The notes under the pieces: model-generated
Told to the model about the DNA's origin: nothing
The model's input: the letters and a program-made list of their open reading frames with translations, nothing else
Database searches by the model: none
In this document: positions 11,071-28,788 of the stretch, piece after piece
Layout: each line of letters starts with the position of its first letter
Numbering within the stretch: the stretch's first letter is position 1
Program-made: the position numbers and the translations under genes
Assembly: GCF_000336775.1 (NCBI RefSeq)
Contig: NZ_AOLJ01000022.1
Coordinates: forward strand, 164,823-228,822
Origin: Haloferax gibbonsii ATCC 33959
Lineage (GTDB): Archaea; Halobacteriota; Halobacteria; Halobacteriales; Haloferacaceae
Direction: 5' to 3'
DNA length: 64,000 nucleotides

Positions 11071-14000
11071 TTACGCGGCGACCGAAACCGCGCTGGCGTC
11101 GACTGACGCCGAGGTCGATGCCGACTCGTTCGTCTGCGAGTCGTCTGAATCGGAGTTCTCCGTCAGGTTGAACTCCTGTTCGTTCCGTTCGAGAGTGACC
11201 TGCACGGTTCCGTCTTCGGCACCGTTGACGAGGCCTTCCTCGACGGCGACGTTCTGCGCCTGGTAGCTGACGATGGTGTTGTTCCCGGCGAAGGTCGTCG
11301 GCCCGGTGAACGTGTAGTCGCCCGTCGCGCGGACGTCGACGTTCGTGTAGCCGTTGTCCGGACCGTACTCGTCGTAGCCGGTCGTGGAGTACGGGAGCGT
11401 CATCGTGAACTCACCGTCGGCGTCGGTCTGCGCCTGTTGCGTGTAGGTGAAGTTCGTGCCCGTGGTCTGGTCGCGCATCTGGACGCGGGCGGTCACCGTC
11501 GTGTTGGCCGGGGCACCGCTGCCTTCGACCGTCGCGCCGGGGACGCGCTCGAACGTCTTGACCCACGAGGGGTTGTTGGGAACGAGCGCCTGCGCTTGGA
11601 TGCCGTAGGTGTTGCCCGCCTGGATGAACGAGTTCTGGTAGGACCCCGAACGGAGCGCCGAGTTGTTCGAGGACTTCACGAGGCGGTAGTGTTCGAGGGC
11701 GGCGACGCGTTCCTCGGGGAACGTGCCGATGCCGCCGATCTGCGAGGTCGGGTCGTTCGCGACGTACTCCTCGGCGGCGGTCATGTTGTCGAACACTCTG
11801 ACCGCCTGCCCGTCGGACGGCGTCACCTTGAACGTGGTCTCGCCGTCGGCGGACGTTCGTTCTTCCCAGTCGACGACGATGGGCGACGCCTCACGGGCGC
11901 TGCCGTGGTACGCGTAGAGCCGGACCATCAGGCTCTCGTAGTACCGCTGGTCTTTGAGGCTCGACACGGCGGCGACTCTCGTCTGTCCCTCCTGCTCCTG
12001 CAGGCGGTACATCGTACTGTAGAAGTCGGACGTGGAGACGTTCGACTCGTCGTAGAAGACGGTCGGCGCACCGAACTTCGAGTCGGTCGAGGCCATCTGC
12101 CAGTCGACCATGACGTAGCGGGTCTCGTTACCCTCCTCGCTCATGTCGGCGAGGACGTCGGAGGCCTGCTCCTCGTTCGGCGCGAGGAGGAAGTTCGCGG
12201 CCTCGGTCGCGCCCTGCTGGAACGGGTTAGCGTTCGGGATGCGCTCGCCGAGGACCGTTATCCAGTGCCCGTAGTCCCACCACGACATGACGCCGTACGT
12301 TCCCTCGGCGTAGTCGAAGTCGTCGGTCCGTTCGTAAGTTCCGTAGTAGTCCATCTCGTTGGATGCGCCGCCGAACTGCCCCTCTTCGGGCGTGCTGTTC
12401 TGCATCCACTCGAAGCTGTCCTGCCACTGCGTCACCGTGCCCGGTCCGGTCTGGGACGACTGGAGGGCGTTGCTGCTGGTGCCGGCGTTGCCGAGCTGAA
12501 TCGGCACGACGAGCACCGGGGTGAGGACGAGAAGCAGGGCGACGGCGACGACCGCGACCGTCCCGTACGACACGTCGTCGAGGCGGTCGGTGCCGGCGAG
12601 GTCGATGATACCGAGCGAGAGAATCTCGCGGAGGAGGTACGCGTTCATCACCGCGACCACGACCGCGAGGTAGTAGTTGAAGCGGACCTGCGTGAAGGCG
12701 GCCGAGGTGATGATGGCCGCCCAGACGAGGACGAACAGGTGTTCGCTCTCGTAGTCGGCCTGCAGCACCGCGCCGACGATGAGGGCGCTCGCGATGGCGA
12801 GGCTGACGAGCGAGGATTCGAGGCCGAGGAGCCCGCCGATGCCGGCCGGGATGGCCGGAATCAGGAAGATAACGCCGAAGGCGGCGAGGCTGCCGGCGAC
12901 GTAGCCGATCTTCCGAGTGTCGCCGTCGCGGACGAGCGGCTTGCCGACGAGCCAGATGGCACCGACGAGGCCGGTGAAGAACGTGAAGCCGTACTCGGAC
13001 ATGATGCGCTCGGTCGCGGTCATGCCGCTGTTCTGCAGGACGCTCGCGGCGATGAAGGGCTGTGCCTCGCCGATGGTGCGCGTCGCCGCACCGGCGCTGA
13101 AGCCGACGGTGCGGAGGAAGTTGACGCTCACCTGGCGGAAGGCGTCGGGGAGGACGACGGCCGTGCCGATGACGGCGACGAGGCCGAGGGCGGCGACCGC
13201 GACGGGGTAGCCGCGGTCGTCGACGTCGTTAGACTCCCACCACCGGGCCAGCGCAGCGAGGAACACCGCGCCCGCGCCGATACCGAAGGCGAACACGGGG
13301 TGGAGGAGACTGAAGTTCGTCACGCTGAACGAGAAGTCGGTCAGCGGGACGAACATCAGGAGGCCGGTGACGAGCATCGAGACCGCACCGACGAACGCGA
13401 CGTGTTCCGGGGACTGTCCGCCGACGTAGTCGGCGACCATCTGGAGGACCAGGTACAGGCCGAAGATACCGACCAGAAGGACGCCCGGTGGCCACGCCCA
13501 CATGTAGAGCGCCATGCCCACGCCGGCGAGCGCGGACCAGATGAGGGTGGAGCGGAGGGCGTCGAAGTCACGGGCGGCGACGAGTTCCCAGACGGGCTTC
13601 TCGCGGTTCGCCACGGTGAGGGCGATCATGATGGCGACGACCGCGAAGCCCTGGAAGAACGGCTCGGCGATGTTGTGGTCGGCGAAGCCGACGAGGCCGC
13701 GCTGGAGGAACGTCCCGGGGAGCAAAGCGAGGATGACGACCCCGAAGATGCCGCCGAGGCGACCCCCGAGACGACGGCCGATGAGGAACGTCGGAATGGC
13801 CACGAGCGCCCCGAAGACGGCCGGCGCGACAAGCAGCGTCTTGGCCACGAGGTCGGCCGACGGACTGCCGAGGCCGACGACGAGGGCGGCCGTCGCGATA
13901 ATCTGGTCGTAAACCGTCCCGAACTGGCCGACGCTCGTCCCGAACGGGAAGTAGGTCCACGGGTCGAACGGCATCGTCGACGGCCAGTTCTGGACGGAGT

Positions 14001-14205
14001 ACGTCACCTCTCGGAGGTGATACCAGGCGTCGTTTCCGGAGAAGAGGACATCACCGTCCCTGATAAAGTTACTATACGACCGAAGACGGACGGCCAACAT
14101 GGCGACCAGTATCACGAGGAGGGCGGGGACGTGATACCAGTCTTTGGCGAGGTCGAGGACCGACTTCGAGTCGGGGCCCTCGATGCGCTCTGTGTCTGCG
14201 CTCAT
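11071..14205 (-). CDS. aglB: Dolichyl-phosphooligosaccharide-protein glycotransferase AglB
   Basis: Archaeal STT3-type oligosaccharyltransferase that moves the dolichol-linked glycan to Asn in Asn-X-Ser/Thr of S-layer and other surface proteins. The 1044-aa protein has about 13 N-terminal membrane segments and a large extracellular C-terminal domain. The first external loop carries the metal-binding acidic motif (GNDAWYHLREV, near residue 58), followed by GFADHNIAEPFF. The catalytic-domain signature WWDYGHWI is present near residue 640. Length and motifs match H. volcanii AglB closely. The gene anchors one end of the glycosylation island. Its promoter has a palindromic TATA region. Confidence 0.97.
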   Translation of the reverse strand: MSADTERIEGPDSKSVLDLAKDWYHVPALLVILVAMLAVRLRSYSNFIRDGDVLFSGNDAWYHLREVTYSVQNWPSTMPFDPWTYFPFGTSVGQFGTVYDQIIATAALVVGLGSPSADLVAKTLLVAPAVFGALVAIPTFLIGRRLGGRLGGIFGVVILALLPGTFLQRGLVGFADHNIAEPFFQGFAVVAIMIALTVANREKPVWELVAARDFDALRSTLIWSALAGVGMALYMWAWPPGVLLVGIFGLYLVLQMVADYVGGQSPEHVAFVGAVSMLVTGLLMFVPLTDFSFSVTNFSLLHPVFAFGIGAGAVFLAALARWWESNDVDDRGYPVAVAALGLVAVIGTAVVLPDAFRQVSVNFLRTVGFSAGAATRTIGEAQPFIAASVLQNSGMTATERIMSEYGFTFFTGLVGAIWLVGKPLVRDGDTRKIGYVAGSLAAFGVIFLIPAIPAGIGGLLGLESSLVSLAIASALIVGAVLQADYESEHLFVLVWAAIITSAAFTQVRFNYYLAVVVAVMNAYLLREILSLGIIDLAGTDRLDDVSYGTVAVVAVALLLVLTPVLVVPIQLGNAGTSSNALQSSQTGPGTVTQWQDSFEWMQNSTPEEGQFGGASNEMDYYGTYERTDDFDYAEGTYGVMSWWDYGHWITVLGERIPNANPFQQGATEAANFLLAPNEEQASDVLADMSEEGNETRYVMVDWQMASTDSKFGAPTVFYDESNVSTSDFYSTMYRLQEQEGQTRVAAVSSLKDQRYYESLMVRLYAYHGSAREASPIVVDWEERTSADGETTFKVTPSDGQAVRVFDNMTAAEEYVANDPTSQIGGIGTFPEERVAALEHYRLVKSSNNSALRSGSYQNSFIQAGNTYGIQAQALVPNNPSWVKTFERVPGATVEGSGAPANTTVTARVQMRDQTTGTNFTYTQQAQTDADGEFTMTLPYSTTGYDEYGPDNGYTNVDVRATGDYTFTGPTTFAGNNTIVSYQAQNVAVEEGLVNGAEDGTVQVTLERNEQEFNLTENSDSDDSQTNESASTSASVDASAVSVAA

Positions 14206-15129: not shown

Positions 15130-16575
15130 ATGAATATCCTACTCCTCATCATGGACAGCGTCCGTGCGAGCAACACTAGCCTGCACGGCCACGAACACCG
15201 GACGACCCCGTTCTTGGAATCGCTCGCCGACGAGGCCACGGTCTACGAGACCGGTATCAGCCCCGGCTCGTGGAGCCTGCCGAGCCACACCAGCATCTTC
15301 ACCGGCTACCACGTCGCCGAACACGGCGTCACCGGCGCGAAAAACAAGCTCGAACCCGGACACACCATTTTCGAGCGGCTCGCCGACGAGGAGGGCTACT
15401 CGACCGGCATCTTCTCCGAGAACACGTGGGTCACCGAGATGGACGTGGGACTGAAAGAGACCTTCCAGACCGTCGAGGGCGCGCGGAACATCCCGTACGT
15501 CGAGGGTCTCGACCCGAGCAACTTCGTGCTCACCGAGGGACAGGGCAACTACGCCGGCTACCTCAAGCGGTGTCTGTCCCACGACCACCCGGCGAAGTCG
15601 CTCGCAAATGGGGTCGTCACGAAGCTCGCGTGGGACTACCCGCAGTACCTCCCCGACTCGCTGAAGGCGACTACGCCCGCGGACGTGTACGTCGACCTCT
15701 TTCTGGACTGGGAGGAGACGCGGAACGACTCGTGGGCCGCCTGCATCAACCTCATGGACGGTCACATGCCGTACGAACCCCGCCCGGAACACGACAACTG
15801 GGGCGGGAAACGCCTCCAGAAGCTCCAACAGGACGTCGACGACCAGGTGTGGGAGTACCTCGGTGGCCACCGACCCTGGTGGGAGAAACGCGCCATGGAG
15901 GGGCTGTACGACGGAACCATCCGACAGATGGACGCCCAAATCGAACGCCTCGTCTCGACGCTCAAAGAGCGCGGCGAGTACGAGGACACGCTCATCGTCG
16001 TCACCGGCGATCACGGCGAGGGCTTCGGCGAGAAGAGTCAGGTCAAGCCCGATGTGCGACTCGCCGGCCACGGCAAGGACGTACACGAGGCGGTCCTCCA
16101 CGTCCCGCTCGTCGTCAAGTTCCCCGGGCAGTCGGACTCCGAGACGGTCTCCGCGGCGGCCTCGCTCACCGAGTTCCCGCGCGTGGTCGACGCCGTCCTC
16201 GACGGCGAGTGGGACCGCGACGCGTTCGTCCCCGACGACGGGGCGGTCGTCGCCTCGACCCACGGCCTCGACGAACCCTCACAGGCGCTCGCCGAGGAGT
16301 TCTGTGGGTCCGTCATGCCCTACGGAGGCGTCTCACGGACCGTTTACGAGACGACCGACGAGGGCGTGGTGCAGTATCAGGCCTGGGAGGACGCCGCCAG
16401 CACGGTTCGCATCTTCGACGCGAAGACCGCGTGGAAGGCCGCCGATACCGACGACGGCGTCGTCTCGGAGACGTTCGGCGCGTTCGACGACCTCGGCGTC
16501 CGCGAGGAGAGCGAGGGCATCGATGCCGCCGAGGGTGCAACGAAAGAGCGCCTGAAGGACTTAGGGTACCTGTAG
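15130..16575 (+). CDS. AlkP/sulfatase-superfamily enzyme 1, Ser-type nucleophile
   Basis: A 481-aa alkaline-phosphatase/sulfatase fold protein. The metal ligand Asp9 lies in LIMDSVRASN. The nucleophile loop reads W-S49-L-P-S-H53. Where formylglycine sulfatases need C/S-x-P-x-R, this has Ser and then His in place of Arg, so classical sulfatase maturation is unlikely. The second metal site is VVTGDHGEGFGE near residue 298, then a GHGKDVHEAVLHVPLV helix. The fold begins at residue 1 with no signal peptide or membrane segment, so it is cytoplasmic. It ends in LKDLGYL, as do its paralogues here. It probably modifies or hydrolyses an ester on the glycan or lipid carrier; substrate unknown. Confidence 0.82.
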   Translation: MNILLLIMDSVRASNTSLHGHEHRTTPFLESLADEATVYETGISPGSWSLPSHTSIFTGYHVAEHGVTGAKNKLEPGHTIFERLADEEGYSTGIFSENTWVTEMDVGLKETFQTVEGARNIPYVEGLDPSNFVLTEGQGNYAGYLKRCLSHDHPAKSLANGVVTKLAWDYPQYLPDSLKATTPADVYVDLFLDWEETRNDSWAACINLMDGHMPYEPRPEHDNWGGKRLQKLQQDVDDQVWEYLGGHRPWWEKRAMEGLYDGTIRQMDAQIERLVSTLKERGEYEDTLIVVTGDHGEGFGEKSQVKPDVRLAGHGKDVHEAVLHVPLVVKFPGQSDSETVSAAASLTEFPRVVDAVLDGEWDRDAFVPDDGAVVASTHGLDEPSQALAEEFCGSVMPYGGVSRTVYETTDEGVVQYQAWEDAASTVRIFDAKTAWKAADTDDGVVSETFGAFDDLGVREESEGIDAAEGATKERLKDLGYL

Positions 16576-16645
16576 CGGGGCGTCTACGGTTGCGGGGCCG
16601 GTGTGACGGCGGGTCGTCGTCGTGGCCCGCCCCGTTCCGAAGCCA

Positions 16646-16661
16646 TAGAAAGTTTTTCTTT
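16646..16661 (+). promoter_or_regulatory. BRE/TATA of the 16684 gene
   Basis: GAAAG followed by TTTTTCTTTGG, centred about 29 bases before the ATG at 16684. It gives a separate leaderless promoter for this gene. Confidence 0.5.
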
Positions 16662-16683
16662 GGTCGGTTGGGTCCGGTCCTCT

Positions 16684-17631
16684 ATGTCGAACGCATTCGA
16701 CCGGATCAAATACGGCCTCTCGCAGATCGCCGAGAACGGCCGGAGTTTGAACTGGTGGCGGGGGACGCTGATGCGGCGGGGAAACGGGGCGATTCAGACG
16801 AAACTGTATCCGGGCAGGCGCGGAATCGACGTGGTCGACGCGGATTGGGACACGCTCGTCGTCCTTGACGCGTGCCGGGCCGACCTCTTCGAGGAGTTCG
16901 TCGACCTCGACCAGTTCGACGACTACCGCGCGGAGACCAGTCGAGCGAGTGCGACTCCCGAGTGGCTCCCGGTCTCGTTCCCCGACGAGTACGGCGACAT
17001 CGTCTACGTCTCGGGCAACCCGCAGGTCTCGAAGAAGGTGCCGGACAAGTGGCACAAGCTCTTCGAAGTGTGGCAGGACGCCTACGACGACGACGTGGAG
17101 GCGATTCTCCCCGGACCCATCATCGACGGCGCGATTCGAGCGCGCGAAGAGTACCCGGACAAGCGGCTCATCGTTCACCTGATGCAACCGCACGTCCCGT
17201 TCGTCGGCCGCCCGGACCTCCACTTCTGTACCTACCAGTTGTTCGAGGACCTGGACATGGACGGCGACGACCGCGCCGGAAACGTCTTCGAGGCCGCGGC
17301 CAAGGGCATCGTCGACGAAGAAGAGATGTGGCAGGCGTACGGCGAGAACCTGACCTACGCGATGGACGAGGTCCAACGGCTCATCGACGCGTTCGACGAG
17401 CGCATTGTCCTCACGTCCGACCACGGCAACGTGGTCGAAGCGAAGTCGTGGCCGCTGCCGTTCACCTACCACCAACACCTGCCGTACCACCGCCACCCCG
17501 GCCTCGTGACGGTCCCGTGGGCGGTCCTCGACGGCGAGCGGCCGACTATCACCGACGACGGCGTCGAGTCCAGCAGCCGCGCCACCTCCGCGGAGGTCAC
17601 GGAGCGACTGGAGAATCTCGGCTACAAGTAG
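16684..17631 (+). CDS. Short AlkP-superfamily protein 2
   Basis: A 315-aa protein with the reduced AlkP/sulfatase core. The first metal Asp is in DTLVVLDACRADLFEEF (near residue 63). SRASATPEWLP follows where the nucleophile Ser/Thr is expected. HLMQPHVPFVG supplies a metal histidine and LTSDHGN the second metal pair. It is shorter than the 450-480 aa paralogues and lacks their C-terminal subdomain, but ends with the same LENLGYK-type tail. Its 50-residue N-terminal leader has no hydrophobic segment, so it is cytoplasmic. It closely resembles the 19531 gene in layout. Function in the glycan pathway is inferred only from context. Confidence 0.78.
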   Translation: MSNAFDRIKYGLSQIAENGRSLNWWRGTLMRRGNGAIQTKLYPGRRGIDVVDADWDTLVVLDACRADLFEEFVDLDQFDDYRAETSRASATPEWLPVSFPDEYGDIVYVSGNPQVSKKVPDKWHKLFEVWQDAYDDDVEAILPGPIIDGAIRAREEYPDKRLIVHLMQPHVPFVGRPDLHFCTYQLFEDLDMDGDDRAGNVFEAAAKGIVDEEEMWQAYGENLTYAMDEVQRLIDAFDERIVLTSDHGNVVEAKSWPLPFTYHQHLPYHRHPGLVTVPWAVLDGERPTITDDGVESSSRATSAEVTERLENLGYK

Positions 17632-17667
17632 TCAGCCGGGGTTCCGATTCGAATTCGTTCGGCAGTC

Positions 17668-18366
17668 TCACCCGAGCACGTCGGAGACGCTCTCGATGCT
17701 CGTGAGGTCCGTCTCGAAGAACTGTCTGTTCTCTGCTACCTTCTCCTCCGACCAGTTCCACCACGCCGTGTCGAGCAGTTCCTCTCGGATGTGTTCGTCG
17801 AACCGCCACTTCTTTCGTTCGGCGGGGACGCCCGCGACAACCGCGTAGGGCTCTACGTCGCTCGTCACGACGGCCCCCGCGCCGACGATTGCGCCGTGGC
17901 CGATAGAGACTCCCGAGAGGACGGTCGCGTTCGAACCGATCCACACGTCACTTCCGACGTCGATGTCTCCTTTCGAGGTCCACGCCAACTCGTCGCCGGT
18001 GACCTGTCGGTACAGTTTCAATTGCAGCGTCGGATTCGCGGTCGTGTGGTTCTGCGACCGGAACTCCGCGCCGGGGGCAACGGCACAGTACCGTCCGATA
18101 TCGACGGTCCCTCTGAGTGTGTTCCGACCGTTGAGATTCGTCCCCCGTCCGAGACCTACCGTCCCGTTGAGTACGCAGTCGGGACCGACGTGCACGTCGT
18201 CACCGAGTGAAATATCTCCTCGCATCGAACAGCCGGATTCGATGCCGACGTTCCGCCCCCGTGAGAAGTTCGTCTCCGCGGGCGACTTGTCGATGAGCGT
18301 CGTGGCGATCTCGGGGTAACCAAGCCGCGAAACCACGGATTCGACAGTCGTCTTTACGCTCCGCAT
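17668..18366 (-). CDS. Left-handed beta-helix (hexapeptide) acyltransferase
   Basis: A 232-aa CatB/NodL-like hexapeptide-repeat transferase. Repeats such as IGRYCAVAPGAEF, VGSDVWIGSNATVLSGV and IGHGAIVGAGAVVTSDVEPY lie between residues 40 and 185. The extended loop contains the usual active-site His (RSQNHTT near residue 106). AVVAGVPAERKKWRF closes the acetyl-CoA site. It is probably an O-acetyltransferase that decorates an island sugar. It faces the surrounding genes and has its own leaderless promoter. Its base composition is less GC-rich than its neighbours, consistent with gain by transfer. Confidence 0.85.
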   Translation of the reverse strand: MRSVKTTVESVVSRLGYPEIATTLIDKSPAETNFSRGRNVGIESGCSMRGDISLGDDVHVGPDCVLNGTVGLGRGTNLNGRNTLRGTVDIGRYCAVAPGAEFRSQNHTTANPTLQLKLYRQVTGDELAWTSKGDIDVGSDVWIGSNATVLSGVSIGHGAIVGAGAVVTSDVEPYAVVAGVPAERKKWRFDEHIREELLDTAWWNWSEEKVAENRQFFETDLTSIESVSDVLG

Positions 18367-18386
18367 TGTACGGAGTCTCCGCGTGG

Positions 18387-18398
18387 TACTATATTACC
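18387..18398 (-). promoter_or_regulatory. TATA element of the acetyltransferase gene
   Basis: GGTAATATAGTA on the minus strand, centred 26 bases before the ATG at 18366; fits a leaderless promoter. Confidence 0.55.
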
Positions 18399-18468
18399 CT
18401 TGCCCTCCAGTTATCAACATTGATAGGAAAGGGCGATGAGCACGCGACTGCGATGACGACCGGACAGT

Positions 18469-18480
18469 TGATTTTTAACC
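18469..18480 (+). promoter_or_regulatory. TATA element of the 18501 glycosyltransferase
   Basis: TTGATTTTTAAC ends 20 bases before the ATG at 18501, with the TATA core centred about 27 bases upstream. Confidence 0.55.
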
Positions 18481-18500
18481 TCGTGTGGGGCACTCTGAGT

Positions 18501-19424
18501 ATGTCCAGTTCCCCTCGCTACTCCATCGCGGTCTGTAACTACAACATGGCCGAGACCATCGAGGAGTCGCTTCGGAGCATGGTTGAGCAGGTCGACGAGG
18601 AACTGTACGAGGTCGTCGTCGTCGACGGCGGTTCGACCGACGGTAGCCGCGATATCCTCCGCGAGCTGGAGGCCGAATTCGACAACTTGCGGGCGGTTCT
18701 TGACCGGTCGGACGAGTGCGACTGGCTCGGCGGGGACCGAAACATCTCCTTCGAGGAGTCCCGCGGCGAGTACGTCCTCGAATCGCTCGACACGGACGAC
18801 TACTACCACGAGGGGGTCATCGAGGACTTCGTCGAGATATTCCACGCGCTGGAGGCGCAGGTCGACCGTCCCTTCTTCCTCAGCGGGCGCGGGATGAACA
18901 TCGCCCCCCGCGGACTCCTGCTCGACGTGCCGTACTACGACGTGGGCGGCGCAGAGGACCGCGACCACTGGCGACGGCTGTACGCCCGCGACGCGCTCAT
19001 CTGGCTGGACCACGGTCACGTCTCGGACTCGCTGGGCTACGACTTCGACCTGCGCGGCGAAATCAGCCGCGACATCCACGGGAAGATAACCGACTTCCAG
19101 TCGGGCGTCTCCTTCTGGAGCGCGATTCGGTGGACGCTCCACCACGAACACCACTACATCTTCGAGCGACCGCGGAGCCTCCCCCGCGAGGTCCTAAAGC
19201 GCCTCTACGACCTCGCGACGTTCCCGTACGCCTACCTGAAATCGCTCCCGCTCGAACGACACGAGGCCCCGGCGGAGTTCCGGCGGAAGGGCGCGCTCGA
19301 AGCGCGCATCGCAGCGACGCGGATGACGCTCCCCGAGATGGAAGCCCACTACGGCTTCGAGGTCGACTGCGACGAGTTCAGCGAGGCGGGCAGGAAGGCG
19401 TTCTGCGAGTACGCCGACACGTGA
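18501..19424 (+). CDS. GT2 family glycosyltransferase
   Basis: A 307-aa GT-A transferase. The N-terminal strand is YSIAVCNYNMAETIEESLRSM. The nucleotide-binding VVVVDGGSTDGSRDIL lies near residues 38-52, and a DTDDYYHEG segment near residue 97 supplies the metal-binding acidic pair. The C-terminal half is charged, without clear membrane helices. The start at MSSSPRYS is chosen because the GT fold begins there and a TATA core sits 27 bases upstream; the longer open frame crosses that promoter. It is one of four island glycosyltransferases. Sugar and acceptor are unknown. Confidence 0.85.
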   Translation: MSSSPRYSIAVCNYNMAETIEESLRSMVEQVDEELYEVVVVDGGSTDGSRDILRELEAEFDNLRAVLDRSDECDWLGGDRNISFEESRGEYVLESLDTDDYYHEGVIEDFVEIFHALEAQVDRPFFLSGRGMNIAPRGLLLDVPYYDVGGAEDRDHWRRLYARDALIWLDHGHVSDSLGYDFDLRGEISRDIHGKITDFQSGVSFWSAIRWTLHHEHHYIFERPRSLPREVLKRLYDLATFPYAYLKSLPLERHEAPAEFRRKGALEARIAATRMTLPEMEAHYGFEVDCDEFSEAGRKAFCEYADT

Positions 19425-19493
19425 CCGACGCTGGAACGTCTCGCGCCGACCGGTGGGATACTCGGTGCCTGATTATCAAACTGTATTTCTGTG

Positions 19494-19510
19494 GAGAAAC
19501 GTTCAAAACC
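19494..19510 (+). promoter_or_regulatory. BRE/TATA of the 19531 gene
   Basis: GAGAAACGTTCAAAACC is a GAAACG BRE-like stretch joined to TTCAAAA, centred about 28 bases before the ATG at 19531. It resembles the leuA promoter at 32431-32446 (GAAACGTTTAAATAGG). Confidence 0.5.
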
Positions 19511-19530
19511 CCCTGAAGGGAGTGTCTCCT

Positions 19531-20466
19531 ATGGGGCTTGGCGATTGGGCATCTAACGCACGGTGGTACTATCAGAATCTGAACCTCGGGACCGCGGCGA
19601 AAGTCAGCGCCGCGGAGCTACTGGGGGGCGCGGTTCGGCGGGCGTATTCGCACGCTCCACGACTTGGGAGACCGATATACGAGCGGGACTGGGACGCGCT
19701 GATTATTTTGGACACGTGCCGTCCCGACGCCCTCGAAGCGGTCGCATCGGAGTACGACTTCCTCCCCAACGGTCGCGTCCCGACCGCCACCTCGCTCGGG
19801 TCGAACTCCCGCGAGTTCATGCGGTACAACTTCACCGAGGAGTATCGCGAGGAGATGGACCAGACGGCGTTCGTCACGTTCAACCCGAACTCTGACGCCA
19901 TGCTCGACCCCAACGACTGGTTGCTGTTGGACGAGGTGTGGCGGGACGCCTGGGAGGCCGACATCGGGAGCGTCCGGCCGCGGACGGTGACGAACCGCTC
20001 GATAGCGGCTCACCGCGAACTCGATCCAGAGCGAACGATTATCCAGTACCAACAGCCGCACACGCCGTACCCGCACTTCGAGAAGCACGACTGCGGGGCG
20101 CTCGCCATCGAGGACGACGCGAACGACCGGTCCGGGATATTCGGCGCGATTCTCGACGGAAAGATAACTCGCGAGGAGGCGTGGGAGGGCTACCTAGACA
20201 ACCTACGCTGGGCGCTCGACGACCTCGAACTCCTCCTCTCGAACCTCGATGCGGAGCGGGTGATACTCACGTCGGACCACGGCGAGTGTTTCGGCGAGTG
20301 GGGACTGTACGGCCACCACAGATCGACTCCAGTCCCGGAACTCATTCGCGTTCCGTGGGTCGTCACCGAGGCGACTGACGAGGGAACTCACGAGCCGCCC
20401 GCCGCATCCACCGACCCCGACGATGTCGGTCTCGACAGCAAGCTCTCTTCGCTCGGCTACCTGTAG
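19531..20466 (+). CDS. Short AlkP-superfamily protein 3
   Basis: A 311-aa protein and sister of the 16684 product. The metal Asp sits in DALIILDTCRPDALEAV (near residue 61). A Ser/Thr-rich nucleophile stretch TATSLGSNSREFMRYNF follows. QYQQPHTPYPHFEKHD provides histidines, and ILTSDHGECFGEWGLYGHH provides the second metal site. The C-terminus KLSSLGYL shows the shared tail. There is no signal peptide or membrane helix. The start at MGLGDWAS is supported by the TATA spacing. Activity is unknown; the missing C-x-P-x-R motif argues against a formylglycine sulfatase. Confidence 0.78.
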   Translation: MGLGDWASNARWYYQNLNLGTAAKVSAAELLGGAVRRAYSHAPRLGRPIYERDWDALIILDTCRPDALEAVASEYDFLPNGRVPTATSLGSNSREFMRYNFTEEYREEMDQTAFVTFNPNSDAMLDPNDWLLLDEVWRDAWEADIGSVRPRTVTNRSIAAHRELDPERTIIQYQQPHTPYPHFEKHDCGALAIEDDANDRSGIFGAILDGKITREEAWEGYLDNLRWALDDLELLLSNLDAERVILTSDHGECFGEWGLYGHHRSTPVPELIRVPWVVTEATDEGTHEPPAASTDPDDVGLDSKLSSLGYL

Positions 20467-20523
20467 CGTCCCGTCGTAGCGGGACGACACCACGCTATCG
20501 CCGCTGACGACGTCTCCTCGCGG

Positions 20524-21867
20524 TCAATCCATATATCCGAGCTCTTCGAGTCGCTTCTGTACGTCCTCGCTCACGTCGTCGGCCTCCGGGACGCCCTCGG
20601 TCGTCTCGCGCAGCAGGTGCGGCGGAATCTCCGACCGGAACGAGGCACAGCGGTCGGGGTGGTCGGCCGCGACGTTCTCGCGCTCTTTCGGGTCGGCACG
20701 GAGGTCGTACAGTTCGTCTTCCTCGCCGTCGACCGCGATGTACTTCCAGCCGTCCTCGCGGACGCCGACGACGGGGCCGGCGTCGCTGAACGATCCGGTC
20801 GAGACGACCCGCCGGGGACCGCCCTCGAAGAGGTCGGTTCCGCGGAACGCGCTCGGCGGTTCGACGCCGTGGTTTCGCGCTACCGTGGGCGCGAGGTCGA
20901 GGAGTTCGCGCTGGTCGTCGACGACCCCGCCGTCGCCGCGGTCGGACTTCACCACGAGCGGGACGTGCGTCAGTTCGTCGTAGGGGCGGTTCCGGTGGTA
21001 GTAGTTCCCGTGGTCGGCGAACTCCTCGCCGTGGTCGGCGGTGAGGATGATATCCGTCTCGTCGTAGCGGCCGAGCGACTGCAACCCGTCGAGGAAGCGG
21101 TCGATGTGGTCGGACGTGTACCGGATATCCGAGTCGTAGAGGTCGACGATTCGCCGACGCTCCGCTTCGGTCACGTCTTCGGGGTGGATTCCCGCCTTGG
21201 ACATGAGACGGCGAATCTCCGACTCGTCGGCGGGCTCGGCGTACGCCGGGTCCTCGAGGTCGATGCCGTAGGGGCGGTGTGGGTCCATGTAGTGGACCCA
21301 CAGGAAGAAATCGCCGTCGACGCCGTCGAGCCACTCCAGGGCCCGGTCGGTCGTCTTCTCGGCGTTCTCGTACACCGTCTGCTCCATGATGAGCGACGCC
21401 GGGAAGACGGCCTCCTGAATCCGTTCGGCGAGGGGACGTATCCCGAGCGACTCGACCGTCGGACGGACGACGTCCATCGTCCGTCGAAACAGCCTGTGGG
21501 CCGCCGACGGCGACCCCGAGTCCTCGGAGTCCATGATGCCGAAGTCGTCGAAGTGGTCGAAGTCGGCCGGGCGGGGGACGCGGCTCGCGAAATAGGTGTT
21601 CGAATGGATGCCGGCGGTCGATACCTCGTCGGGGAGCGGAGAGGCGATGTTTGGCCCGTCGCGGGCGTGTTCGTCCCCGCGGTACCGGGAGGTGAGAAGC
21701 GACGGCACCGAGATTCCCGTGTTGGTACCGTTGGCGAAGGCGGCGGTGAACAGCGTCGAGTCGTCGTCGAGCAGGCGGTCGAGGACCGGAAGCGTGTCCC
21801 GCTGGTAGCCGTACTGGCCGACGTGGCCGGCCCGGAGCGCGTCGACGGTGATCAACACGGTGTTCAT
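20524..21867 (-). CDS. AlkP/sulfatase-superfamily enzyme 4
   Basis: A 447-aa sulfatase-fold protein. The metal Asp9 is in LITVDALRAGHVGQYG. The nucleophile loop is G-I-S53-V-P-S-L57, Ser again with Leu where sulfatases have Arg. HYMDPHRPYG supplies the His, and ILTADHGEEFADHGNYYH the second metal site (near residue 285). A typical C-terminal sulfatase subdomain (DGWKYI, DELYDLRADPKERENVA) is present, which the other island members lack or have in divergent form. By layout this is the most classical family member. It is cytoplasmic, with no signal. Start at 21867 is set by a TATA element 29 bases upstream; it is divergent from the 21969 gene. Confidence 0.83.
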   Translation of the reverse strand: MNTVLITVDALRAGHVGQYGYQRDTLPVLDRLLDDDSTLFTAAFANGTNTGISVPSLLTSRYRGDEHARDGPNIASPLPDEVSTAGIHSNTYFASRVPRPADFDHFDDFGIMDSEDSGSPSAAHRLFRRTMDVVRPTVESLGIRPLAERIQEAVFPASLIMEQTVYENAEKTTDRALEWLDGVDGDFFLWVHYMDPHRPYGIDLEDPAYAEPADESEIRRLMSKAGIHPEDVTEAERRRIVDLYDSDIRYTSDHIDRFLDGLQSLGRYDETDIILTADHGEEFADHGNYYHRNRPYDELTHVPLVVKSDRGDGGVVDDQRELLDLAPTVARNHGVEPPSAFRGTDLFEGGPRRVVSTGSFSDAGPVVGVREDGWKYIAVDGEEDELYDLRADPKERENVAADHPDRCASFRSEIPPHLLRETTEGVPEADDVSEDVQKRLEELGYMD

Positions 21868-21890
21868 TGCTTCGGTGGTGTGGCAGGTGC

Positions 21891-21940
21891 GTTCAAATAT
21901 CTGTTGCTCAGCGGTCGGCACACTCGAAGGTGCTATAACC
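21891..21940. promoter_or_regulatory. Divergent promoters between AlkP genes 4 and 5
   Basis: Minus strand: AGATATTTGAAC (21891-21902) is centred 29 bases before the ATG at 21867. Plus strand: GTGCTATAACC (about 21930-21940) lies 34 bases before the ATG at 21969. The two elements are about 35 bases apart, so the genes may influence each other. Confidence 0.5.
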
Positions 21941-21968
21941 TCCGGCGAAGAATCGCCGACAACCCGAA

Positions 21969-23381
21969 ATGAGAAACGTCGTCCTCATCTGTCTCGACAC
22001 CGTCCGGAAGGACTACTTCGACCGGTTCGCCGAGCGGTTGCGCGAGCGGGCCGACGCCTCTTTCGACCAGTGTCGGGCTGCGAGTGGCTGGAGCGTTCCG
22101 AGCCACGCGAGCATGATGACCGGGAAACTACCGCACCAACACGGGATTCACGTGTACAACCGGGATTTCTCAGGGCTCCGTCGGGAAGACACGTTTCTCG
22201 CTGACCTCCCGGACCACCGGGCGTTCGGGTCGAGCGCGAACGTCTACGCCAGCGACGCGTTCGGCTTCGACCTGCTTTTCGACGACTTCACCAGCGTCTC
22301 GCCCGACCGGCGGTTCCCCGACGGCATCGACGCCGAAAAGTTCGGACAGGAGTGTGAGGAGACGGGGCTCGCCCGCTACCTCGCCTTCCTGAAAGCCTCG
22401 CTCGCCAGCGACCATCCGGTCCAGAGCCTCGCCAACGGCGCGCTCGTCGAGTTCGACCGACAGTTCGCCGAGCTCCCCGTGCCGAAGCCGCTCGACGACG
22501 GGGCGAACATCGTCTCGCGCGAGGCGGTGAAGCTCGTCCGCGAACACGGCGACGCGGACCCGTTTTTCATGTTCACGAACTTCATGGACGCCCACGGTCC
22601 GCTCACCCACGTCCGCGGCTACGACTCAGACCTCCACGACGCGCCGTACTCGTGGACGACGGGCGAGTACAGCACCCACGAGGTCAACGTCTCCGGCGAA
22701 CTCGAAGAGAACTGGGAGCACATCGAACACACCCGCGGGCTCTACGGCGCGGCCATCGACTACCTCGACCGCAAGGTGTGTTCGTTCATCGACCGCGTGC
22801 AGGACGAGACGGACCGAGAGACGACGTTCGTCATCACCGCCGACCACGGCGAGAACCTCGCGTTCGAGGCCGACGGCGGCCTCCTCGCCCACAAGGGCGT
22901 CCTCACGGAGGGGCTGCTCCACGTCCCGCTTCTCGTCGTCAACGCGCCCGAGGGATACGACGACAGCGAGACCGGCTACTTCTCGCACGTCGACCTCGGT
23001 CGCTTGCTCGTCGGACTCGCGCGCGGGGAGACGCCCGACGTGTTCGAAGCGCGTATCGCCGCCGAGCGAATCGGCTCCAACATGGCCGCCGACGCGTCCG
23101 AGGCGGAGCGCCGCGAGTGGGACCGCATGATCCGCGTCGTCTACGACGGGGCCGACAAGTACGAGTGGGATTCCAACGGGACTCGGCTTCGCCACCGACT
23201 CGACCCGGACCGACCGAACTGGCAGGAACTCGCGGCGGAGGACGTCGATATCGGCGACCTCGACGAGGCGTTCTTCGACGCTCCGCTCGACGAGTACAAG
23301 CGCGAGGCCGTCACCGCGAGCACCGACCACGACGTGGACCAGACGACGAAGTCGCGCCTGAGCGACCTCGGCTACATCTGA
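21969..23381 (+). CDS. AlkP/sulfatase-superfamily enzyme 5 (tandem paralogue)
   Basis: A 470-aa protein. The metal Asp10 lies in LICLDTVRKDYFD, and the nucleophile loop is G-W-S42-V-P-S-H46. NFMDAHGPL supplies the His, and VITADHGENLAFEADGGLLAHKG the second metal site. It shares long blocks with the next gene (MRNVVLICLDTVRKD, LYGAAIDYLDRKVCSFID, FEADGGL), so the pair arose by duplication. As in enzyme 1, His replaces the Arg of the sulfatase signature. There is no signal peptide, and it ends LSDLGYI. The C-terminal 120 residues (DGADKYEWDSNGTRLR) differ from classical sulfatases. Role inferred as glycan or lipid-carrier modification. Confidence 0.82.
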   Translation: MRNVVLICLDTVRKDYFDRFAERLRERADASFDQCRAASGWSVPSHASMMTGKLPHQHGIHVYNRDFSGLRREDTFLADLPDHRAFGSSANVYASDAFGFDLLFDDFTSVSPDRRFPDGIDAEKFGQECEETGLARYLAFLKASLASDHPVQSLANGALVEFDRQFAELPVPKPLDDGANIVSREAVKLVREHGDADPFFMFTNFMDAHGPLTHVRGYDSDLHDAPYSWTTGEYSTHEVNVSGELEENWEHIEHTRGLYGAAIDYLDRKVCSFIDRVQDETDRETTFVITADHGENLAFEADGGLLAHKGVLTEGLLHVPLLVVNAPEGYDDSETGYFSHVDLGRLLVGLARGETPDVFEARIAAERIGSNMAADASEAERREWDRMIRVVYDGADKYEWDSNGTRLRHRLDPDRPNWQELAAEDVDIGDLDEAFFDAPLDEYKREAVTASTDHDVDQTTKSRLSDLGYI

Positions 23382-23450
23382 ACAGCTGACGCGCCGGTCG
23401 GCGACCGTTTCCTCCCGATTTCGGGCGGTTTCGGCGGTGATTTCGGTCCC

Positions 23451-23466
23451 GAAGAACCTTTCTATG
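23451..23466 (+). promoter_or_regulatory. BRE/TATA of the 23496 gene
   Basis: GAAGAACCTTTCTATG lies about 35 bases upstream of the ATG at 23496. It gives enzyme 6 its own short-leader promoter in the 114-base gap after enzyme 5. Confidence 0.4.
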
Positions 23467-23495
23467 GCCGCCGCATCAGCCACCTGTACCGACGT

Positions 23496-24893
23496 ATGAG
23501 AAATGTCGTCCTTATCTGTCTCGATACTGTCCGAAAGGACTTCTTCGATTCCTTCTCCTCGCGGCTCCAGGAGCGGGCGGACATCATCTACGACCAGTGC
23601 CGAACCGCCAGCACCTGGAGCGCCCCGAGCCACGCGAGCATGTTCACGGGGACGCTCCCCCACGAACACGGCGTCCACGCCTACCACCGCGACTTCTCGG
23701 GTATCGGTCGCGACGACACGTTTCTCGCCGAGCTTCCGGACCACCGCGCGCTCGGCGTGAGCGCCAACGTCTGGGCCGGGTCGTCGTTCGGGTTCGACGG
23801 CTTCTTCGACGAGTTCTCCAACATCTCTCCCGACCGACGTTTCCCCGAGGGCATCGACGTGGCCCGGTTCGGCCAGTCCTGCGAGAAGACCGGCCTCGGG
23901 AAACAACTCGAGTTCCTCAGGCGCGCGCTCGAACACGAACAGCCGGTTCAGAGCCTCCTCAACGGCGCGGCCGTCCAAGTTGACAACATGCTGGCGACCG
24001 CGCCGGTGCCGAAGCCGATGGACGACGGCGCGAAGACGCTCATCGGGCAGGCAAACCGCCTCGTCGGCGCGTCCGACGAGCCGTTTTTCCTCTTTACGAA
24101 CTTCATGGACGCCCACGGTCCCCTGCGGCACATCCTCGGCTACGACGGGAGTCTCCACGACGCGCCGAACTCGTGGAGCTCCGAGCGCCTCGACTGGTCG
24201 CGAATCGTCGCCGAGGGCGACGAGACCGAGATGACGCGCTACCGCGACCTCTACGGCGCGGCCATCGACTACCTCGACCGCAAAGTGTGTTCGTTCATCG
24301 ACGAGGTGCGGGCGGCGACAGACGAGGAGACGACGTTCGTCGTCACCTCCGACCACGGCGACAACCTCGCGTTCGAGGCCGACGGCGGCCTGTGGGGTCA
24401 CACCGAAAGCAGCCTCAACGAAGCGCTGACGCACGTCCCACTCGTGGTCGTGAACGCGCCCGGTGAGGGCACCGACGTCGTCGACGGCTACGTTTCGCAC
24501 CTTCGGCTCGGCGACCTCCTCGTCGGCCTCGCCCGTGGGGAGCGCCCCGACGTGACCGACGCGCGGATTCCCGTCGAGCGAATCGGTCACAGCGGCAAAC
24601 AGCACAAGCTCGCCGAACAGGCGCGGGACACGAACCGGATGCTCCGCGCCGTCTACGACGGCGACCGCAAGTTCGTCTGGGCGGACGACGGGAGTCGAGA
24701 GACCTACCGTCTCGACGCCGACCGCCCGTGCTGGCAGGCCGAGACCGACGAACCGTTCGACGCCGAGTCGCTCGACGACTCGTTCTTCGAGATGCCCGTC
24801 GCCGACTACGCGGAGCGCGCTCGGTCCGCCGAAGACGAACTCGGCGTCGACGGCGCGACGGCGGACCGACTCCGCGAACTCGGCTATCTCTGA
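23496..24893 (+). CDS. AlkP/sulfatase-superfamily enzyme 6 (tandem paralogue)
   Basis: A 465-aa protein, close paralogue of the preceding gene. Metal Asp10 is in LICLDTVRKDFFD, and the nucleophile loop is T-W-S42-A-P-S-H46. FTNFMDAHGPL supplies the His and VVTSDHGDNLAFEADGG the second metal pair. The differences from its twin cluster in residues 100-200 and in the C-terminal third, as expected for a change of substrate. There is no signal peptide or membrane helix, and it ends LRELGYL. It is followed at 48 bases by the flippase gene on the same strand, so the two may be co-transcribed. Confidence 0.82.
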   Translation: MRNVVLICLDTVRKDFFDSFSSRLQERADIIYDQCRTASTWSAPSHASMFTGTLPHEHGVHAYHRDFSGIGRDDTFLAELPDHRALGVSANVWAGSSFGFDGFFDEFSNISPDRRFPEGIDVARFGQSCEKTGLGKQLEFLRRALEHEQPVQSLLNGAAVQVDNMLATAPVPKPMDDGAKTLIGQANRLVGASDEPFFLFTNFMDAHGPLRHILGYDGSLHDAPNSWSSERLDWSRIVAEGDETEMTRYRDLYGAAIDYLDRKVCSFIDEVRAATDEETTFVVTSDHGDNLAFEADGGLWGHTESSLNEALTHVPLVVVNAPGEGTDVVDGYVSHLRLGDLLVGLARGERPDVTDARIPVERIGHSGKQHKLAEQARDTNRMLRAVYDGDRKFVWADDGSRETYRLDADRPCWQAETDEPFDAESLDDSFFEMPVADYAERARSAEDELGVDGATADRLRELGYL

Positions 24894-24941: not shown

Positions 24942-26384
24942 ATGAAAAAGACAGACAGCCTCTCCATCGGCCGCGAGGCGTTCCTCTCCCTGTTCTCGAA
25001 GGTCCTCACCGCCGGTACCGGCTTCGCCGGCGTCGTCATCTTCGCGAACCTCCTCGGCGACGTCGGCTGGGGAAAGTACCGGACCGTCCTCGCCGCCGCA
25101 TTCGTCCTCACGCAGGTTCCGAGCGGTATCGGCGCGGCGGTCAAAAAGCGGGTGAGCGAGGTCGGCGTCGAGCCCGGCTCCTTTTTCGGGACGGCGCTCC
25201 TCGCGCACCTCGCGTTCTCGCTCGTCGTCGCCGGTGCGTACGTACTCCTCGAGCCCTACGCCGTCGACTACTTCGGAACCCGCGAACTGGCCGTCGGCGT
25301 GGTGCTCGTGGTGGTGTCGCTCGGACTGTTCAACATCGCGAACAAGCTCTACGCCGGCACGGGTCACCCGGCGGTCTCCTCGTGGGTCGACGGCATCCGG
25401 AGCCTCCTGACCATCGCGCTCCAGCTGCTCTTTTACTGGCTCGGCTTCGAGGCGTTCGGGCTCGTTCTCGGCCTGGCCATCGCGACGGTCGGAACGGCCG
25501 TCCTCGCCGCAGTCCTCTCGCGCGTTCTCCCCGCGCGCCCGACGAAACGGGTCGCAGAGCGAATCTACGACTTCGCCCGGTGGAGCGTCCCGACCTCGAT
25601 GCTGTCGAATTTCTACTCCAGCGCCGACGTGCTCATCATCCAGGCGTTCGTCGGCCCGGCCTCGGTCGCGTACTACTCGGTCTCGATTCAGCTCGCCCAG
25701 CCCGGGGCGATGTTCGCGACGACCATCGGAAACGTGCTGAACGTCAAGTCGAGCGGCGTCGACTCCGTCGGCGGCGACGTGCGGTTCGACCTGATTAACT
25801 CCATCTCCTACGCGGGGCTCATCGCGATTCCGGTCTTCTTCGGCGCGGCCGCGATGCCGAAGGAGTTGGTGACGACGCTGTTCGGTAGCGATTTCGCCAA
25901 CACGCCGGTGCTCGTGGTCGTCGGGATGACCCTGTTCCAGATCGGCAATGCCTACCGCCACCCCTTCGAGGCCGTCTTACAGGGCACCGACCGCCCGGAG
26001 CTCGTCTTCCGGGTGAACAGCTTCATCGTCCTCCTGCACCTTCCGGCCGCGGTCGCGCTCGGGAGCGTCTACGGGCTCGTCGGCGTCGTCGCCAGCACGG
26101 TCGCCGCGGAGGTCGTTCGACACGCCGTCTTCCAGTACGTCGCCCACCGCGAGTTCGGCGGCGTCGTGTTCACGCGTCCGATGCTCGAACAGACAGTCGC
26201 CGGCGCGGTCATGTTTGCCCTCGTCTGGTCGGTCCTCGAATACGCCGTCTCGATTACCGGGTGGGTCTCGCTGCTGCTCGTCGTCGGGTTCGGTGCCGTC
26301 GCCTACTTCGCGGCGCTCCTCGGACTGAGCAGCCACTTCCGCGAGACGGTCAGAAACACGGTCCCCGGGCTCTCGGGCGAGTAA
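24942..26384 (+). CDS. Wzx/AglR-type lipid-linked oligosaccharide flippase
   Basis: A 480-aa MOP-superfamily membrane protein with 12-14 hydrophobic segments. The N-terminus LSIGREAFLSLFSKVLTAGT resembles polysaccharide biosynthesis flippases, including H. volcanii AglR and Agl15. A conserved NFYSSADVLIIQAFVG stretch lies near residue 225, and charged loops separate helix pairs. It probably moves the dolichol-linked glycan to the outer face, where AglB uses it. It is the only flippase-like gene in the island. Orthology to AglR is likely by role; sequence orthology cannot be judged here. Confidence 0.88.
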   Translation: MKKTDSLSIGREAFLSLFSKVLTAGTGFAGVVIFANLLGDVGWGKYRTVLAAAFVLTQVPSGIGAAVKKRVSEVGVEPGSFFGTALLAHLAFSLVVAGAYVLLEPYAVDYFGTRELAVGVVLVVVSLGLFNIANKLYAGTGHPAVSSWVDGIRSLLTIALQLLFYWLGFEAFGLVLGLAIATVGTAVLAAVLSRVLPARPTKRVAERIYDFARWSVPTSMLSNFYSSADVLIIQAFVGPASVAYYSVSIQLAQPGAMFATTIGNVLNVKSSGVDSVGGDVRFDLINSISYAGLIAIPVFFGAAAMPKELVTTLFGSDFANTPVLVVVGMTLFQIGNAYRHPFEAVLQGTDRPELVFRVNSFIVLLHLPAAVALGSVYGLVGVVASTVAAEVVRHAVFQYVAHREFGGVVFTRPMLEQTVAGAVMFALVWSVLEYAVSITGWVSLLLVVGFGAVAYFAALLGLSSHFRETVRNTVPGLSGE

Positions 26385-28677: not shown

Positions 28678-28698
28678 GAAATGTGGTTTTCCCACCAA

Positions 28699-28768
28699 GA
28701 ATAAAAGTGCTGTAGGTTGCTCTCGCCCCGCGGATTCGCGGGGACACATCCAGAAGTCCTTTTATACT
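28699..28768. promoter_or_regulatory. Divergent promoters of the GT operon and aglJ with central palindrome
   Basis: Minus strand: GCACTTTTATTC (28699-28710), about 27 bases before the ATG at 28677. Plus strand: CTTTTATAC (28759-28767), about 26 bases before the aglJ ATG. Between them is a perfect inverted repeat, CCCCGCG-GATT-CGCGGGG (28726-28743). A regulator bound there could control both sides of the locus. Confidence 0.6.
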
Positions 28769-28788
28769 GTCCGCTGGATGTCCCGCTG

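Follow-up and report, generated by a model that had tools for sequence, protein, structure and literature searches.

Six alkaline phosphatase-fold genes in an N-glycan assembly locus of Haloferax gibbonsii as candidate genes for cytoplasmic sulfotransferases

The window analyzed here is a stretch of 64,000 nucleotides of Haloferax gibbonsii ATCC 33959 (contig NZ_AOLJ01000022.1, positions 164,823 to 228,822 of the forward strand). At 15130-24893 of the window, six genes encoding proteins of the alkaline phosphatase (AlkP) fold were found, five on the + strand and one (P4) on the - strand. Their products, P1 to P6, are predicted to be cytoplasmic sulfotransferases of the N-glycosylation pathway, of the same kind as Agl30 and Agl31 of Halobacterium salinarum, and this reading is given a probability of about 0.6. 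The six genes are listed below with the PF00884 match, the loop at the candidate nucleophile (numbered) and the C-terminal tail.

15130-16575, + strand: P1, long AlkP-fold protein of 481 amino acids; PF00884 1.3e-32; loop SWS49LPSH; tail LKDLGYL
16684-17631, + strand: P2, short AlkP-fold protein of 315 amino acids; PF00884 0.0018, under the curated cut-off; loop SRASAT91PEW; tail LENLGYK
19531-20466, + strand: P3, short AlkP-fold protein of 311 amino acids; PF00884 0.0092, under the curated cut-off; loop SLGSNS93REF; tail LSSLGYL
20524-21867, - strand: P4, long AlkP-fold protein of 447 amino acids from ATG; PF00884 1.5e-35; loop NT50GISVPS; tail LEELGYMD
21969-23381, + strand: P5, long AlkP-fold protein of 470 amino acids; PF00884 4.5e-17; loop GWS42VPSH; tail LSDLGYI
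23496-24893, + strand: P6, long AlkP-fold protein of 465 amino acids; PF00884 2.8e-21; loop TWS42APSH; tail LRELGYL

For P4, the open reading frame as listed has 465 amino acids, with a GTG start 18 codons upstream of the ATG. The following genes lie between and around the six.

11071-14205, - strand: AglB, archaeal oligosaccharyltransferase; TIGR04154 963 bits (cut-off 450); PF02516, PF22627, PF18079
14392-15111, + strand: GT2-like glycosyltransferase; PF00535 1.8e-5
17668-18366, - strand: hexapeptide-repeat acyltransferase-like protein, candidate for sugar O-acetylation; PF00132 4.5e-16
18501-19424, + strand: GT2 glycosyltransferase; PF00535 1.9e-19
24942-26384, + strand: MOP-type lipid-linked glycan flippase, AglR-like by position; PF13440 2e-12, PF01943 1e-11
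27526-28749, - strand: GT2 glycosyltransferase; PF00535 2.5e-20
28717-29697, + strand: AglJ, glycosyltransferase of the dolichol-linked N-glycan; TIGR04182 453 bits (cut-off 325)

Profile matches place AglB (TIGR04154) on one side of the six AlkP genes and AglJ (TIGR04182) on the other, and since GT2, acyltransferase-like and MOP flippase genes lie inside these borders, the cluster is read as an N-glycan assembly locus. Four of the eight PF00884 matches of the genome fall inside these 10 kb of 4.06 Mb, and this clustering of AlkP genes exceeds chance. The six genes are not the product of one recent burst, because only P5 and P6 are close (57% identity, tandem copies); the identity is 32% between P2 and P3 and about 23-32% over the aligned parts in the other long pairs. 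The corresponding locus of Haloferax prahovense DSM 18310 (L080) has 96-98% DNA identity and the same six AlkP frames, with P2 100% identical, and this is the highest number of AlkP frames among 80 related loci, four others having five. A second locus in the H. gibbonsii genome (L056, G000:C18:128001-148000) contains two AlkP genes flanking a flippase. Directly adjoining aglB in the window is a gene with a PF04018 match (DUF368, undecaprenyl-phosphate translocase-like, 216 bits; 9979-10947, - strand), which may encode an archaeal protein for dolichol phosphate recycling.

All six open reading frames that the earlier note had assigned to the AlkP fold were recovered, and the fold is backed by the PF00884 matches, by the profile alignment of the short family with the long family (hhalign, probability 98.6) and by structure models of P1 and P3. 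Among the 50 matches listed for the P1 model (mean predicted local distance difference test, pLDDT, 78), at Z 28-34, most are sulfatases or phosphonate monoester hydrolases; YejM/PbgA reach 28-30, and SpAS2 (4upl) is at the top (Z 33.7, root-mean-square deviation 3.4, 378 residues aligned). The P3 model (pLDDT 87) is also AlkP-like, with EptA (4kav, Z 15.2) tied with the sulfatase 6hhm (Z 15.0). The metal-type D and DHG motifs are retained in all six proteins, as had been reported, and an SLxNG motif is common to P1, P5 and P6. P2 and P3 carry N-terminal extensions of about 50 residues, with no membrane helix by hydropathy.

The same note had described the proteins as lacking signal peptides and membrane helices, which agrees with the hydropathy results: in none of the six was a 19-residue window above 1.6 on the Kyte-Doolittle scale observed (a hydropathy scan, not the output of a dedicated signal-peptide program), and no twin-arginine motif was found within the first 35 residues of any of them. 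As controls, the flippase and AglB have 81 and 108 windows above 1.6. P1 to P6 are thus predicted to be cytoplasmic.

The C/S-x-P-x-R signature of formylglycine (FGly) sulfatases is, as previously noted, absent from the nucleophile loops of all six proteins. For the long proteins, the loops first proposed were kept in P1 (SLPSH), P5 (SVPSH) and P6 (SAPSH) and replaced in P4, where SVPSL had been chosen and the alignment instead places Thr50 of N-T50-G-I-S-V-P-S in the nucleophile column, a departure from the S-x-P-S-H pattern. The short proteins had been thought to have no usable loop; they have the loop pattern S-x-G-S-x-[ST]-x-E-[WF], with a conserved Ser/Thr in the equivalent place (Thr91 in P2, Ser93 in P3). 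Profile-profile pairs from P3 to P1 are S93-S49, H177-H212, D249-H250 with D294-H295, and H262-H314, and in both models a helix is predicted to begin at the candidate nucleophile (49-58 in P1, 93-100 in P3). Ser86 of P2 and Ser88 of P3 were considered as the short-family nucleophile and dropped, since both the alignment of the profiles and the predicted beginning of the helix favour Thr91 and Ser93. Ser88 of P3 (19792-19794) is kept in 102 of 105 short relatives, though it is Ser93 that aligns with the nucleophile.

For the comparison with relatives, 80 loci were found with the short family, a relative of which is encoded at 545 places, and the long relatives counted are those near a short one. 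The resulting set has 182 relatives (105 short, 77 long), including frames cut by contig ends and the six L080 frames; alignment A3, of which P2 is a member, omits the rows L015 and L030. In the nucleophile column, Ser or Thr was observed in 178 relatives, a gap in 3, Arg in 1 and Cys in none (long family T 57, S 17, gap 2, R 1; short family T 66, S 38, gap 1). C-x-[PA]-x-R occurs somewhere in 6 of the 182, yet no Cys stands in the nucleophile column, in contrast to four bacterial sulfatases taken from the P4 matches, all of which have C-x-P-x-R and lack the LGY tail described below. The catalytic-type His, Asp, His and second His are kept in 105, 105, 104 (one Tyr) and 105 of the 105 short relatives and in 75, 75, 75 and 73 of the 77 long ones, the rest being gaps. 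Database labels for haloarchaeal proteins of this kind are sulfatase, sulfatase-like, LTA synthase family and hypothetical protein.

When the long profile was aligned with the C54S form of choline sulfatase (7pth), the FGly position was occupied by S49 of P1 and that of the signature Arg by H53, and D9, H212 and D294-H295 took the places of the corresponding Asp, His and Asp-His. No equivalents of K102 and H104, both important in choline sulfatase (PMC5870055), are kept in the alignment to the long family. An Asn stands beside the K102/H104 place in 61 of 77 long and 90 of 105 short relatives.

Thr cannot be converted to FGly, so the interchange of Ser and Thr in the nucleophile column speaks against an FGly mechanism for the family, and P1 to P6 are most probably not FGly sulfatases. 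That they are ordinary sulfatases, with the Ser matured to FGly by an unrecognised enzyme, would be in keeping with the sulfatase fold of the long model and with the ability of anSME to mature Ser in some bacteria, but it appears extremely improbable, since Thr is the commonest residue of the column in both families, the signature Arg is replaced by His (28), Phe (24) or another residue and found in 1 of 77 long relatives, and K102 and H104 are not kept. Moreover, the profile search for maturation enzymes that had been proposed gave no formylglycine-generating enzyme (FGE) match in the genome at E <= 0.001, and the best genome match to the anSME model reached 38.9 bits against a cut-off of 349.45. 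One sulfatase encoded elsewhere in the same genome (L002, G000:C5:147821-148810) has the FGly-type loop CIPAR and no LGY tail; since neither an FGE match nor an anSME above the cut-off was found in the genome, either this protein is inactive or another maturase exists.

The chemistry suggested for P1 to P6 comes from Halobacterium salinarum, where Agl30 (VNG1056C) and Agl31 (VNG1057C), two AlkP-like proteins of the aglB cluster, were demonstrated in 2025 to act as N-glycan sulfotransferases, through deletion of their genes, through mass spectrometry and through expression in Hfx. volcanii, in which the glycan became sulfated (PMC11980604). VNG1057C was recovered in the soluble fraction, whereas VNG1056C was membrane-associated; N-glycan sulfation was unaffected when VNG1063H, an AlkP-like gene of the same cluster, was deleted (PMC11980604). 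The absence of FGly had been taken as a hint away from sulfate chemistry and the proteins as a possibly new branch of glycan modification; the first does not hold, as the activity of Agl30/Agl31 is sulfation, and the branch is already published. In the main text of PMC11980604 none of the terms PAPS, phosphoadenosine, donor, catalytic, active site and formylglycine occurs, and within the open-licence PMC literature the mechanism and donor of Agl30/31 are undescribed. Within the literature searched, the Ser/Thr rule, the corrected short-family nucleophile and the common LxxLGY tail are new, as are the array of six genes and its lack of fit with the classical PAPS machinery.

The Halobacterium proteins were compared with the window's families through 29 peptides encoded by the primers of PMC11980604, taken in three frames and scored against two profiles (58 uncorrected scores; p floor 0.0002 from 4000 random peptides). 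The VNG1063H peptide VHYFQPH fell on I171-H177 of P3 in the short family, on the catalytic-type His (p 0.0002). The Agl31 tail LEELGYT was matched at p 0.0002 in the long profile and 0.0022 in the short one, and the Agl31 peptide NGAEIK on N160-K165 of P1 in the long family (p 0.0027), which is suggestive only. For Agl30, the tail HLEDLGYL reached p 0.0002 in both profiles; against a P3-like profile of only 4 rows its best places have plausible order and spacing, but p is 0.2-0.3. The VNG1063H primer peptide KELGYIE fits the LGY tail of a P2-like profile (p 0.0027) and was not detected by the other two profiles. By these peptide matches VNG1063H clearly appears to belong with the short family, and Agl31, less surely, with the long family. 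The Agl30/31 primer patterns gave no match in 392 genomes of the order, and none when as many as 3 mismatches were allowed in 26 genomes of a family that is presumably Halobacteriaceae.

All six proteins end in LxxLGY followed by one or two residues. This tail (M or F variants allowed, at most 8 residues from the end) is present in 170 of the 182 relatives, or 164 of 176 when the L080 frames are left out; among the 12 relatives that lack it, several are truncated at contig ends or by their frames, while some carry variants such as RQFGYR and RAIGYV. These counts were taken from the 182 relatives and not from alignments A4 (65 of 95 eligible short relatives plus P2 and P3) and A5 (23 of 25 eligible long relatives plus the four window proteins), for which the LGY tail was required for eligibility. 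In the P1 and P3 models the pLDDT of the tail is about 47-56, so that it is conserved and not confidently placed against its own chain. The C-terminal tail of choline sulfatase makes the oligomer and helps to form the active site of the neighbouring subunit (PMC5870055), and the LxxLGY tail may have a similar role or, alternatively, may serve for docking.

Because AlkP-like Agl30 and Agl31 of an aglB cluster sulfate the N-glycan, a cytoplasmic transferase acting on dolichol-linked glycans before flipping, as the earlier note had proposed, is probably the best reading of P1 to P6. Sulfation would be the likeliest chemistry; the case for it is strongest for P1, P5 and P6, which have the SLxNG motif in common, weaker for P4 and weakest for P2 and P3. 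Each protein would sulfate one hydroxyl of the dolichol-phosphate-linked glycan built by the neighbouring glycosyltransferases, and the sulfated glycan would then be flipped outward by the adjacent flippase and attached to protein by AglB. In the active site, the N-terminal Asp and the DH pair would bind a metal that activates the Ser/Thr, with which the helix following the second core strand begins. The activated Ser/Thr is inferred to take the sulfuryl group from an activated donor, giving a sulfo-Ser/Thr enzyme, from which the sugar hydroxyl would take it over. A plain Ser/Thr would fit a transferase, since the aldehyde hydrate that expels sulfate into water is missing and the covalent intermediate would wait for an acceptor. 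Ser in place of FGly was reportedly found by Recksiek et al. in 1998 to trap the sulfated sulfatase. The C54S choline sulfatase keeps about 0.5% of kcat (PMC5870055), and the trapping together with this low kcat is the behaviour that a transferase needs.

The donor was considered through the sulfate-activation genes. In the H. gibbonsii genome no match to ATP sulfurylase (Sat) was recognised and no adenosine 5'-phosphosulfate (APS) kinase was found above the cut-off; Sulfotransfer_3 (PF13469) had no match (PF00685 and PF03567 were not searched genome-wide), and P1 to P6 have no Pfam match to a Sulfotransfer domain at E <= 0.01. A weak PF01583 match was rejected as APS kinase, because by its sequence and neighbours it appears to lie in FtsY and TIGR00455 is far under its cut-off there. 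Among 117 genomes of the order, Sat was found in 3, APS kinase over the cut-off in 6 and Sulfotransfer_3 in 3 (2 over the cut-off); the short AlkP family is present in 112 at E <= 0.001 (96 below 1e-30). With so few genes of the 3'-phosphoadenosine-5'-phosphosulfate (PAPS) pathway, PAPS is not the obvious donor, and APS from CysD-like proteins is possible. At L055:6936-8998 of the H. gibbonsii genome, tandem CysD/CysH-like PP-loop genes lie beside a Dph6 gene; they score 76 and 83 bits where the model cut-off is 195 and may encode enzymes of sulfate activation or of thiolation. A rare classical PAPS module was observed at G011:C31, G040:C78 and C85, and G093:C6, in the three of the 117 genomes with Sulfotransfer_3 (partial in G040 and G093): a full APS kinase lies within about 2 kb of it, and G011 has Sat there too.

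Several results weigh against sulfation by these six proteins. Sulfation in this organism is a prediction; no PAPS synthesis gene is recognised in the genome; and Ser does not wholly stop hydrolysis, as the residual activity of C54S choline sulfatase indicates. The P3 model matches phosphoethanolamine transferases as well as it matches sulfatases. The kinship with Agl30, Agl31 and VNG1063H is suggested by short peptides and a common setting, not by full-length sequences; RSLFPAT, a control peptide read out of frame, scored p 0.0022 against gap columns in the long profile, so NGAEIK is weak alone, and Agl30 was assignable to neither subfamily. VNG1063H, the sole studied protein that can be placed in the short subfamily, is dispensable for sulfation, which weakens the case for P2 and P3. 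Many short-family members also work outside aglB clusters: around the short relatives, an AglB match was found at 15, a flippase at 16, a GT2 like the window's at 21 and any of these at 34 of the 80 loci (searched with genes of the window alone).

Elsewhere, 4 of the 16 stretches taken from further genomes (L059, L060, L063 and L073) have AglB next to short-family genes, and L060 is the most similar to the window (P1 38%, P3 41%, P4 45-62% in three pieces, GT2 46%, flippase 33%, AglB 48%). Adjacent short and long AlkP genes recur among the loci; in several genomes of genus g44 (L062, L064-L066, L068-L070) such a pair has no AglB match in the 20 kb covered, and the loop of the long partner was read as TTTTPA in L013, L015, L018, L026 and L037. 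This recurrent adjacency, together with the dispensability of VNG1063H, would suit P2 and P3 as accessory or scaffold subunits of the long proteins rather than transferases. We consider this improbable, since the nucleophile Ser/Thr is present in 104 of 105 short relatives (1 gap) and the His, Asp and His in 104-105 of 105, which is not expected of a dead enzyme.

Some or all of the proteins might instead be phospho-type transferases, which would transfer phosphate, phosphoethanolamine or phosphoglycerol to the dolichol-linked glycan by way of a phospho-Ser/Thr, with a nucleotide or a lipid as the donor; in this they would resemble EptA, MCR-1 or LtaS without the membrane domain. EptA tops the matches of the P3 model. 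P4 has sub-cut-off matches to models of phosphoethanolamine transferases (EptA/MCR), and its loop resembles what we take to be the T-x-x-S-V-P loop of MCR-type enzymes. The MCR-1 nucleophile is Thr285, and E246, T285, N329, H395, D465, H466 and H478 lie around its active site (PMC5031297). The residue types of such a site (Thr/Ser nucleophile, D, DH, two His and Asn) appear conserved in the family, a likeness at the level of sequence columns. Nevertheless, this alternative is rather unlikely, because the activity of Agl30/Agl31 is sulfation (PMC11980604), sulfatases and phosphonate monoester hydrolases predominate among the listed matches of the long model, and the membrane domain that would hold a lipid donor is absent.

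Lastly, the proteins could be cytoplasmic hydrolases like NPP, cleaving nucleotide sugars or dolichol-linked intermediates in proofreading or recycling. The T/S-x-P-x-H loop resembles the NPP loop, presumably T-F-P-N-H, and all four long proteins have secondary matches to PF01663 (P1 7e-13, P6 8e-8, P5 2e-7, P4 5e-5). The chance of this is small, as it is difficult to see why a single biosynthetic cluster would need six different hydrolases, and Agl30/31 add a group.

If P1 to P6 are sulfotransferases, haloarchaeal proteins labelled as sulfatases and the like would in good part build sulfated glycans, the opposite of the label; the mechanism of Agl30/31 would gain a testable form, with one Ser/Thr and one covalent intermediate; and the question of the sulfate donor would be raised in organisms with no recognised APS kinase. 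Sulfotransferases independent of PAPS would be useful tools for making sulfated sugars. More tentatively, haloarchaea may possess a large, mostly unnamed superfamily of sulfotransferases derived from the sulfatase/phosphotransferase fold, with a plain Ser/Thr kept or regained, working by a sulfo-enzyme ping-pong mechanism without PAPS (e.g., with APS), with the LxxLGY tail docking to a common partner or completing the active site of the neighbouring subunit, and the classical PAPS system would have been largely replaced in the order; this extension is doubtful.

Among known systems, Agl30 and Agl31 are two demonstrated enzymes against six predicted here, the comparison being made by primer-encoded peptides. 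Agl31 resembles the window's proteins in its aglB cluster, AlkP-like fold, solubility, LxxLGY tail and, less surely, NGAEIK. Agl30 shares the aglB cluster, the AlkP-like fold and the tail, and it is membrane-associated, whereas P2 and P3 have no membrane helix; VNG1063H is like the short family in its VHYFQPH motif. With the FGly (type I, S1) sulfatases and phosphonate monoester hydrolases (SpAS2 4upl, FA22070 6hhm, choline sulfatase), the family shares the fold, the N-terminal Asp, PxH or DxH, and DHG. It differs from them in having Ser/Thr for FGly, mostly His/Phe for the signature Arg, no equivalents of K102/H104 and a biosynthetic setting. EptA, EptC and MCR-1 have the same Thr/Ser type of nucleophile and match the P3 model at Z 14-15; unlike them, P1 to P6 have no membrane domain and are cytoplasmic by prediction, and Agl30/31 add sulfate.

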